This document shows positions 16,839-54,492 of a stretch of DNA of 64,000 nucleotides, one piece after another. Position 1 is the stretch's first letter. Each line of letters starts with the position of its first letter. The notes under the pieces are model-generated. The model did not search any database. It worked only from the letters and a program-made list of their open reading frames with translations, and was not told the DNA's origin. This DNA is from Spirochaeta cellobiosiphila DSM 17781 (GTDB lineage: Bacteria; Spirochaetota; Spirochaetia; DSM-17781). The position numbers and the translations under genes were made by a program. The stretch covers positions 304,876 through 368,875 of the forward strand of contig NZ_KE384556.1 in assembly GCF_000426705.1 (NCBI RefSeq), given 5' to 3'.

Positions 16839-16850
16839 TTTGTCCTCCTG

Positions 16851-16890
16851 TAAAAAAAAACCCGCTTCCTGGCAAGCCAGAAGCGGGTTT
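16851..16890 (-). terminator. Attenuator terminator of leuA
   Basis: On the RNA (minus strand): CCCGCTTCTGGC (16876-16887), two-nt loop, GCCAGGAAGCGGG (16861-16873), then nine U (16852-16860); the stem has one bulged base. It lies 10 nt upstream of the AGGAGG of leuA, so it can only act as a conditional terminator. The 5' arm is also complementary, with one bulge, to CAGAGCGGG in the leader (16938-16946), which would form the antiterminator. Confidence 0.9.
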
Positions 16891-16913
16891 GATAATCTTG
16901 GTTACACTTAAAA

Positions 16914-17003
16914 TTAAAAGCTCACCTGTACATCATCCCCGCTCTGCCAGAGCAGTAAAAGGCCGAGAAGATTAAGGTTTAATAAAAATTGAGCTTTGTT
17001 CAC
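16914..17003 (-). CDS. leuL: leuA leader peptide (leucine-rich, 29 residues)
   Basis: A 30-codon ORF starting with GTG at 17003. Residues 7-18 read LLNLNLLGLLLL, i.e. nine leucines in twelve, followed by WQSGDD and ending VQVSF before TAA. The leucine codons are mixed (TTA, CTT, CTC, CTG). The Leu run is immediately followed by the segment GCTCT-GGC-AGAGC (hairpin 16941-16953), whose 3' part can alternatively pair with the terminator's 5' arm. This is the classical layout of ribosome-mediated attenuation. The start codon lacks a clear Shine-Dalgarno and no consensus promoter was found in the 79 bp between the upstream gene and the leader, so read-through from that gene is possible. Confidence 0.85.
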   Translation of the reverse strand: MNKAQFLLNLNLLGLLLLWQSGDDVQVSF

Positions 17004-17081
17004 ACAACTAATTTGCAGATTTCTTTAAAAAAAATCAAGCCTTTTTTGTGATACTTAAGGTGTTATTACAGAATAAAGCAG

Positions 17082-52195: not shown

Positions 52196-52629
52196 TGCAA
52201 CCAGATGATATCGATTGGAATATTATTAATATATTAAGAGAATCCCACCAGAATAATAATAGCCTAGCTCGAGAGCTAGGCATTTCTGAAGGAACTGTCA
52301 GACAGCGTATTAAGAAACTTAAAGAGGTGGGGATTCTGAAGATCAGAGCCTCTATCAATCCTGATGTCCTAGAGAATCAACAATTAGCCACCATCGCTAT
52401 TAACATTGGTGAGTCATCCCAATTGGAAGCAAAAGCCAAGGAGATCGCCCAGTTACCCGGCGTATTGAACGTGTCCATTACCTCCGGAAGGTATGATCTC
52501 TTTGTAGAACTTCTTACTTTTTCCAATAAGGGTTTGGTTAAGTTCCTCACTCAAGAGCTCTCCACCATACAGGGGATCACCTCGACAGAATCCTTTCTTA
52601 TGCTAAAAAGCTATAATCGTTATGTCTAA
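52195..52629 (+). CDS. Lrp/AsnC-family regulator
   Basis: A 144-residue regulator: N-terminal winged helix (LARELGISEGTVRQRIKKLK) and C-terminal RAM/ACT-like domain (PGVLNVSITSGRYDLFVELL). Translationally coupled to ald, so it probably senses alanine or another amino acid and controls this operon. The last four bases overlap the convergent trpS end. Confidence 0.9.
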   Translation: MQPDDIDWNIINILRESHQNNNSLARELGISEGTVRQRIKKLKEVGILKIRASINPDVLENQQLATIAINIGESSQLEAKAKEIAQLPGVLNVSITSGRYDLFVELLTFSNKGLVKFLTQELSTIQGITSTESFLMLKSYNRYV

Positions 52630-53606
52630 AACCCTACAGCTTCTTTGACTTTGTCTAAGGTTACTTTCGATTTTCCCATAGCCTTTTCACAACCTTCTTT
52701 GGCTAATTGTTCCAAATAAGAGTGATCTTCTTTGTAATGATGATACCGTTCCTGTATGGGAACTAAGTGAGCGAGGATGACATCCACTAAAGAATCTTTA
52801 AAAACCTTATATCCTTGAGGTTCAAATTGATTAATAACAAAGGAGCGGTCCTCCCCTGTCAAAGAGCAATAGATGGTCACAAGATTATTGATTCCACTCA
52901 GCTCTTCTCCTGTATCAAAACGTCCTTGAGAATCTGTTATAGCTTTAGAAATTTTTGCTCTCACTTCATCGGGAGTATCTAAGAGTGTAATATAGGATTT
53001 GGGATTAGGACTGGATTTGTCCATCTTCTTTCCTGGATCTTGTAAATCCATCACCTTGGCCCCCTCTGTAGGCAGGTAGGCTTCGGGCATTGTAAAAATT
53101 GAACCGTAGCGATTGTTAAATCGTTCTGCCAGATCTCGTGTTATTTCCAAATGCTGAACCTGATCCTTTCCAACAGGAACAAGACTGGTTTGGTAGAGCA
53201 AGATGTCCGTTGCCATGAGAATAGGATAGGTAAAAAGTCCCACAGTGCTTTCATGTTTCCTGGATTTAGATTTGAATTGAGTCATTCGTGACATCTCACC
53301 AAACATGGTCAAGCAAGAGAGGACCCAGGTTAGCTCACTATGATGGGGATTATGGGACTGAATAAAAATCGTGCTTTTATCTGGAGTCAAGCCACAAGCT
53401 AGATACAAAGCATAGAAATCCCATACTCTTTGACGTAGTAAATAGGGATCCTGTTTGACCGTTATGGCATGCATATCGACCACACAATAGATGCCATCGT
53501 AGTCATCCTGGCACTGTACCCATTGTTTGACAGCCCCGATGTAATTGCCTAATGTTAGCGTTCCTGAGGGGGAACACCCAGAGAATAGTGTTGATTGTAA
53601 TGACAT
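52626..53606 (-). CDS. trpS: Tryptophanyl-tRNA synthetase
   Basis: Charges tRNA-Trp. The 326-residue class I synthetase has the HIGH-type motif in SGCSPSGTLTLGNYIGA (TLGN) and the KMSKS-type motif in PGKKMDKSSPNP. AGGAGG lies 5 nt before the ATG. A 183-nt leader upstream (53607-53790) encodes a short peptide with three consecutive Trp codons and competing hairpins, so synthesis is expected to rise when charged tRNA-Trp falls. Confidence 0.97.
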   Translation of the reverse strand: MSLQSTLFSGCSPSGTLTLGNYIGAVKQWVQCQDDYDGIYCVVDMHAITVKQDPYLLRQRVWDFYALYLACGLTPDKSTIFIQSHNPHHSELTWVLSCLTMFGEMSRMTQFKSKSRKHESTVGLFTYPILMATDILLYQTSLVPVGKDQVQHLEITRDLAERFNNRYGSIFTMPEAYLPTEGAKVMDLQDPGKKMDKSSPNPKSYITLLDTPDEVRAKISKAITDSQGRFDTGEELSGINNLVTIYCSLTGEDRSFVINQFEPQGYKVFKDSLVDVILAHLVPIQERYHHYKEDHSYLEQLAKEGCEKAMGKSKVTLDKVKEAVGF

Positions 53607-53651
53607 ATTAGCCTCCTTATGTCCTTATGACTAAGAAGACTATCAAAGACA

Positions 53652-53739
53652 GGATGCACCTTTCATCCCAACTCACTATATCCGACAGCCTTCAAAGCCA
53701 TCAAATACAGTTCGATCAAATGGCTTATTACTTAAGCCA
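53652..53739 (-). promoter_or_regulatory. Competing hairpins in the trpS leader
   Basis: Hairpin A on the RNA is TGGCTTA-AGTAA-TAAGCCA (53721-53739) and includes the last Trp codon. Hairpin B pairs AAGCCAT (53720-53726) with ATGGCTT (53695-53701). They share the AAGCCA strand and cannot coexist. A third small hairpin GGATG/CATCC lies at 53652-53668. No U tract follows any of them, so the output may be translational or Rho-dependent rather than an intrinsic terminator. Confidence 0.65.
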
Positions 53740-53790
53740 CCACCATGAGAGGTTTGTTGATCTGTTGTTATTAATAGGTGCTATTACCAT
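53728..53790 (-). CDS. trpS leader peptide (Trp-Trp-Trp, 20 residues)
   Basis: An ATG at 53790 opens a 20-codon frame, MVIAPINNNRSTNLSWWWLK, closed by two TAA codons. Three adjacent Trp codons near the end of a short leader, directly upstream of trpS and overlapping mutually exclusive hairpins, is the hallmark of a ribosome-stalling control peptide. The Shine-Dalgarno is weak (AGGA about 17 nt upstream). Confidence 0.75.
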   Translation of the reverse strand: MVIAPINNNRSTNLSWWWLK

Positions 53791-53822: not shown

Positions 53823-54371
53823 TCAACTTAGTTTGATAAGACCAAGATCTATTAAACCATAGAATATGGTATTCAATAGGAGGGAATGAACAAATTCACC
53901 TTTTTTAAAACGATCATAGAACTCTTCCAATGGCATTAAAACAAGTTCTAAATCTTCTGTATCATCCAGGTTTAGTTTATGAGTCTTTTCCAAACCTGTG
54001 GCAATAAAACCATAGGTCATATTATTCTGGACGGCAGGATTAGCGGCTACTGCGGATATTTGTTTGAAACTCCCACCAGAATATCCTGTTTCTTCCAGGA
54101 GCTCTCTTTTAATACCTTCTAATAAATCCTCTCCCTCCTCTACAATACCCCCGGGTATCTCGAGATAGGTTTCCTGGACACCATGGCGGTATTGTTTGAC
54201 TAAAATGACTTGATTGTCCTTGGTCAAAGGGAGAACATTAGCCCATCTGGGGAATTCCAAAACATAACAGGGATCAATTAGTGTTCCATTTGGTAACTCA
54301 CAAGAGTCTGCTCTCAGTGTTAAAAAATCACTTTGTACAATATATTCTGATTTTTGAGTCTTCCATTTCAT
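53823..54371 (-). CDS. Nudix hydrolase (ADP-ribose pyrophosphatase-like)
   Basis: A 182-residue hydrolase of nucleoside diphosphate derivatives. The Nudix box is complete: GGIVEEGEDLLEGIKRELLE followed by ETG. The N-terminal sequence and length suggest the ADP-ribose/ADP-sugar pyrophosphatase branch. The frame extends to 54491, but ATG 54371 is preceded by GAGGA at a normal distance and gives a typical N-terminus (MKWKTQKSEYIV). Divergent from prfA. Confidence 0.88.
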   Translation of the reverse strand: MKWKTQKSEYIVQSDFLTLRADSCELPNGTLIDPCYVLEFPRWANVLPLTKDNQVILVKQYRHGVQETYLEIPGGIVEEGEDLLEGIKRELLEETGYSGGSFKQISAVAANPAVQNNMTYGFIATGLEKTHKLNLDDTEDLELVLMPLEEFYDRFKKGEFVHSLLLNTIFYGLIDLGLIKLS

Positions 54372-54492
54372 AGCTTTTTCCTCATTAGAACCATAGAATA
54401 CTGTAAGGTGTGCCAAATGAACAGTCTCAGCATTGATTTCCCTGTCTAAATTTGCTATAAAGGCGAGAATCCCCCTGATAATAGGAAGCATA

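Follow-up and report, generated by a model that had tools for sequence, protein, structure and literature searches.

The window, by which we mean the whole 64-kb stretch of DNA that was analysed, carries on its minus strand a tryptophanyl-tRNA synthetase (TrpRS) gene, trpS, and a 216-nt intergenic stretch separates it from a NUDIX-like gene (53823-54491). The features of the leader and the gene that follows it are:

53826-53821 and 53803-53798, minus strand: promoter, TTGACA and CATAAT with a 17-nt spacer, matching 11 of the 12 consensus positions
53790 (ATG) to 53728 (TAA), minus strand: leader ORF of 20 codons, MVIAPINNNRSTNLSWWWLK, with a second TAA at 53727-53725
53745-53737, minus strand: three Trp codons of the leader ORF (leader nt 46-54)
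52626-53606, minus strand: trpS, taken here as an auxiliary copy, 326 aa, E. coli/Bacillus-type branch, KMDKS replacing KMSKS

The assignment of the encoded enzyme to the E. coli/Bacillus-type branch is based on PDB relatives found at E values of 1e-112 to 1e-105. The genome (29 contigs, approximately 96% complete) contains two trpS genes, the second of which (G000:C5:50828-51799) is 31% identical to the window copy and is clustered with genes whose domains were named by inspection as CheW-like, STAS-like and HAD-like. In the TrpRS tree this second copy clusters with trpS genes from many members of the class, and for this reason it is taken as the housekeeping copy and the window gene as the auxiliary one.

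A leader ORF with three consecutive Trp codons had been proposed for this locus in a preliminary description and is confirmed here. It ends in tandem stop codons 121 nt upstream of trpS and is the sole ATG ORF of 8-40 codons in the window that has WWW among its last eight codons, while ten first-order Markov sequences of 64 kb yielded no ATG ORF with WWW near its end; when the whole genome was searched for TGGTGG with a stop codon after it, the matches were too numerous to be of use. An attenuator would be expected to have just such a short ORF, with regulatory codons in tandem close to its end. The leader ATG lies 36 nt from the first base of TTGACA, which would imply that transcription starts at the ATG or within about one base of it, and no Shine-Dalgarno sequence lies upstream of this ATG at a usable distance. 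The leader ORF is therefore probably leaderless.

Competing strands of the leader RNA

The predicted fold of the leader region is more stable than all 200 dinucleotide shuffles (z = -4.9) and can be described as a chain of six strands that pair as 1:2, 2:3, 3:4, 4:5 and 5:6:

53740-53733 / 53727-53720, minus strand: hairpin 1:2, GUGGCUUA / UAAGCCAU, 8 bp, -8.7 kcal/mol
53726-53719 / 53702-53695, minus strand: hairpin 2:3, AAGCCAUU / GAUGGCUU, 8 bp, -9.2 kcal/mol
53711-53695 / 53691-53675, minus strand: hairpin 3:4, 17 bp, -17.6 kcal/mol
53693-53683 / 53645-53635, minus strand: predicted anti-sequestor helix 4:5, GAAGGCUGUCG / UGAUAGUCUUC, 11 bp
53642-53632 / 53619-53609 and 53631-53629 / 53623-53621, minus strand: sequestor hairpin 5:6, 14 bp in all, -15.5 kcal/mol

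Hairpins 1:2 and 2:3 correspond to two structures (A and B) already described as mutually exclusive, and this holds, with the 3' strand of 1:2 being common to 2:3 and strand 1 overlapping the third Trp codon. Together with 3:4 they form the set of mutually exclusive hairpins, the first of them on the regulatory codons, that is typical of an attenuator. Helix 4:5 extends the two hairpins into the longer chain and is predicted to exclude both 3:4 and 5:6 by competition. The preliminary description did not include 3:4, 4:5 or 5:6, nor the second trpS of the genome. The trpS Shine-Dalgarno sequence GGAGG (53616-53612) lies inside hairpin 5:6 and the alternative helix 4:5 would free it, an arrangement which by prediction is that of a translational attenuator. 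The leader differs from a classical trpL-type attenuator, as a terminator scan found no convincing U-tract terminator before trpS. Hairpin 3:4 is followed by GAGUUGGGAUG, which is not a U tract, and the sole weak candidate, at 53670-53650, has 7 bp of which 3 are G-C pairs and an interrupted tail, TCTTTGATAG; the earlier statement that no intrinsic terminator tract is present thus stands, this one unconvincing site aside. An Rfam search returned no T-box or other family in the window or in the other loci with Trp-Trp leaders described below, and the same search picked up T-boxes in two Clostridium homologues (L035 and L036).

Growing transcripts were folded with the footprint of a ribosome masked either at the Trp codons or at the stop codon. 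With the ribosome at the Trp codons, the combination of 2:3 and 4:5 is the minimum at transcript lengths 160-175 (-31.0 kcal/mol at 160), and with the ribosome at the stop codon, 3:4 is the minimum at length 160 (-27.3 kcal/mol) and a mixed state is found at lengths 165-175. The probability that strand 5 pairs upstream is 0.81 with the ribosome at Trp versus 0.10 with the ribosome at the stop at length 160, nearly equal at length 165 (0.80 versus 0.78) and 0.61 versus 0.35 at length 170, and an equally large contrast arose in 0.7% of shuffles (nt 62-144 shuffled) at length 160 and in 9% at length 170, figures which are suggestive only, as length 160 was picked after the folds had been seen. 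The computation supports the view that the choice of helix may depend on ribosome position for as long as strand 6 has not been made.

Once strand 6 has been made, the closed state wins whatever the ribosome state (-42.8 versus -31.0 kcal/mol) and the unpaired probability of the trpS Shine-Dalgarno is approximately 0.001 at full length, which would imply that any control is transient or kinetic and that the ribosome loads before the hairpin closes. The terminator hairpin likewise wins at equilibrium in every state in the leaders of Streptomyces, Embleya and G162 (a genome of the same class), and the closed equilibrium state is therefore no argument against regulation. Equilibrium folding alone was rejected as a test, as the Shine-Dalgarno lies in a hairpin in all states and the outcome neither supports nor excludes regulation.

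The favoured course of events is that transcription starts at the leader ATG and that, given an ample supply of Trp-tRNA, translation proceeds as far as the stop codon, where the ribosome covers strand 2, upon which 3:4 would form and leave strand 5 free to pair with strand 6, hiding the trpS Shine-Dalgarno. An untranslated leader would adopt the hidden state as well (1:2, 3:4, 5:6). Under a shortage of Trp-tRNA, or with the housekeeping TrpRS inhibited, the ribosome would stall on the three Trp codons and cover strand 1; hairpin 2:3 would then form and strand 4 pair with strand 5, and the Shine-Dalgarno, with strand 5 already taken, would be exposed as it is made, allowing trpS to be translated.

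A sister gene and other Trp leaders before trpS

Relatives were searched for at the level of family, order, class and phylum, which yielded one sister gene only (L114 of G162, 53% identical, tree support 100/98) and no other genome in the family or order, and a search of viral contigs yielded none. G162 is a draft genome (approximately 90% complete) that also has two trpS genes, and in both genomes the second trpS falls in another clade. In gene content the two genomes give a spirochaete-like impression. The sister resembles the window gene in its KMDKS motif, its tandem Trp codons and its second trpS. Both enzymes also lack the glutamine of the GxQPSG motif; the position of Gln9 is Ser or Ala in the two sisters, being Ser in the window copy, which keeps the equivalent of His43, two positions looked at with indolmycin resistance in mind. 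The KMDKS and Gln9 changes are possibly the mark of a specialised enzyme.

The leader of the sister gene is MNRNFDGYSFSSHNSRLNWWRPAQ, and the distance from TTGACA to its ATG is also 36 nt. Unlike the window leader it has two Trp codons and not three, and it is followed by GGCGGC...GCCGCC and seven U, a classical U-tract terminator. With the ribosome at Trp, a competing helix of approximately -10 kcal/mol is predicted before the 3' strand of the terminator is made, and with the ribosome at the stop (-2.9 kcal/mol) this helix is absent, so that the G162 leader looks like a textbook attenuator in these folds. A comparison with relatives had been suggested for the Trp codons and stems, and the regulatory Trp codons are indeed conserved in the single sister gene found and absent from single-copy homologues. 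The sole close relative found has a terminator output and thus lends strands 3-6 no comparative support.

A survey of 152 trpS upstream regions of 350 nt each, in which ATG ORFs of 8-45 codons with WW in the last eight codons were sought, found such leaders in six: those of the window, G162, Embleya, Streptomyces, Microbacterium and Klebsiella, the last four all from plasmid records. The reverse strand of the same 152 regions served as a control and gave none. The six genes are spread over three distinct regions of the TrpRS tree, and two-copy status has been established for two of the six loci, those of the window genome and G162. Ten further genomes of the class, which carry the nearest TrpRS types, each have a single trpS and no WW leader. 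The Microbacterium gene (L184, Microbacterium sp. No. 7 plasmid B) adjoins an IS21 element and has the leader MNFNRSAWWWLR with WWW, no U tract and a Shine-Dalgarno hairpin, a layout that resembles that of the window. The Klebsiella gene (L185, Klebsiella pneumoniae plasmid pB18083_2) is approximately 28% identical to the window trpS and lies downstream of the Trp permease gene mtr, its leader MNRNVVISHLRRWWLPA being accompanied by a terminator-like hairpin.

In the trp and pheST attenuators of gamma-proteobacteria the regulatory codons overlap strand 1, the alternatives are 1:2, 2:3 and 3:4, and the terminator is located at 3:4. The window leader has the same three alternatives but two extra strands, which would carry the decision to the ribosome-binding site. 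The erm and cat leaders are translational attenuators in which a stalled ribosome exposes a hidden ribosome-binding site, like the output proposed here, but their signal is a ribosome-targeting antibiotic and not the scarcity of one charged tRNA. The T-box leaders of trpS in Bacillota also sense the charging of tRNA-Trp before a synthetase gene, and do so without a leader ORF. Work by Kitabatake from 2002 reportedly describes the induction of the second, indolmycin-resistant TrpRS of S. coelicolor, and trpRS1 of this species is said to be under ribosome-mediated attenuation, the controlled gene being one of two trpS. The genome studied here resembles this auxiliary TrpRS1 system in having a second, divergent trpS (31% identical in this case).

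Leader-peptide control is on record for the Streptomyces genes trpS and leuS and, in gamma-proteobacteria, for pheST, and S. avermitilis trpS2 has a Trp leader attenuator (PMC1262725), while leader peptides precede trpS, leuS, alaS and thrS in S. lividans (PMC8079986). The preliminary view that such control of a synthetase gene is uncommon outside the T-box world can thus not be kept. Some of the Streptomyces trpS leaders are leaderless and some have no U tract (PMC1262725, PMC8079986). Like the window, with its probable leaderless start, the Streptomyces attenuators combine a short Trp-containing leader peptide before trpS with a leaderless start and competing hairpins. They are read as transcription attenuators, however, whereas the window leader would hide the trpS Shine-Dalgarno and has no U tract. 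In the tree, the window TrpRS is on another branch than the WW-leader copies of Streptomyces and Embleya, and the lineage is apparently another one too.

Within the same genome, the leuA leader (16839-17081, minus strand) has a GTG-started ORF, VNKAQFLLNLNLLGLLLLWQSGDDVQVSF, read by eye, after which a strong terminator with a U tract immediately precedes the ribosome-binding site of leuA; by appearance this leader would be a classical Leu attenuator. No Trp-rich leader was found before the genome's own trp operon (L189, G000 contig C2). The suggestion that the trpS and leuA leaders reflect a general strategy is consequently upheld in part, by the Leu-rich leader and strong terminator of leuA, and fails for the trp operon, from which it follows that Trp-codon sensing seems to have been assigned to the spare trpS rather than to biosynthesis.

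Mode of control and its meaning

The sensor part of the system is well supported and the leader is very probably a Trp-codon attenuator of trpS. A leader ORF that is translated without regulating, with hairpins that merely keep trpS low, or an ORF that is a chance feature, would be in keeping with a Shine-Dalgarno that is buried at equilibrium for any ribosome position, but would leave unexplained why 6 of 152 trpS genes, the sister among them, have a Trp-Trp leader and the reverse strand has none, why the third Trp codon lies under strand 1 and why the fold has a z-score of -4.9; we consider this quite improbable.

The output step is one that we infer from the predicted folds. Translational or Rho-dependent control had been hinted at in the preliminary description, and translational control is the better guess, also when set against a terminator; that the output is translational and set by 4:5 versus 5:6 is somewhat favoured. 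In Rho-dependent control the translation state of the leader would decide whether Rho terminates transcription before trpS, which would suit a leader with no intrinsic terminator, but the 118-nt spacer between leader and trpS is rich in G and poor in C (33 G, 16 C), with nearly all of it paired, which is contrary to what a Rho loading site usually looks like, and this half of the earlier suggestion is very unlikely to be right. The Trp codons might also act on transcription if hairpin 3:4 or the 53670-53650 stem were to stop RNA polymerase without a good U tract. The G162 sister uses a transcription terminator, termination without a good U tract has been proposed for some actinobacterial leaders, and for trpL2 before trpS of S. 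lividans two hairpins without any U-rich stretch are reported (PMC8079986). Downstream of the 17-bp hairpin 3:4, however, the sequence is other than U, and the weak terminator-like site at 53670-53650 that could be invoked in its place counts just 3 G-C pairs, with a tail that is interrupted, while the long Shine-Dalgarno hairpin would be left without a role, so that transcriptional attenuation is judged unlikely, if less so than control by Rho.

The preferred reading is that a ribosome-mediated attenuator ties the auxiliary trpS to the supply of charged tRNA-Trp, probably acting at translation, to which we assign a probability of about 0.6. What seems new is that a known sensor, the Trp leader of trpS, has as its apparent output a hidden ribosome-binding site and not a transcription stop. 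A broader proposal, for which we would offer slightly less than even odds, is that a six-strand relay conveys the Trp-codon signal beyond the three usual hairpins and as far as the ribosome-binding site in front of a spare trpS, such that the supply of charged tRNA sets translation and not termination, and that spare trpS genes have acquired leaders of this kind on three or more occasions, the output, be it a terminator or a ribosome-binding site, having been swapped between sisters.

These observations take the control of spare synthetase genes by Trp leaders beyond the actinobacteria and suggest a common rule in which the extra trpS is held off for as long as the housekeeping enzyme and its product do not fail. 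Such a rule would fit a gene that serves as an inducible back-up when TrpRS meets an inhibitor or Trp is scarce. Should the relay function in the way the folds predict, it would be a natural sensor of an amino acid, one whose output is translational and which requires neither a regulatory protein nor a terminator.
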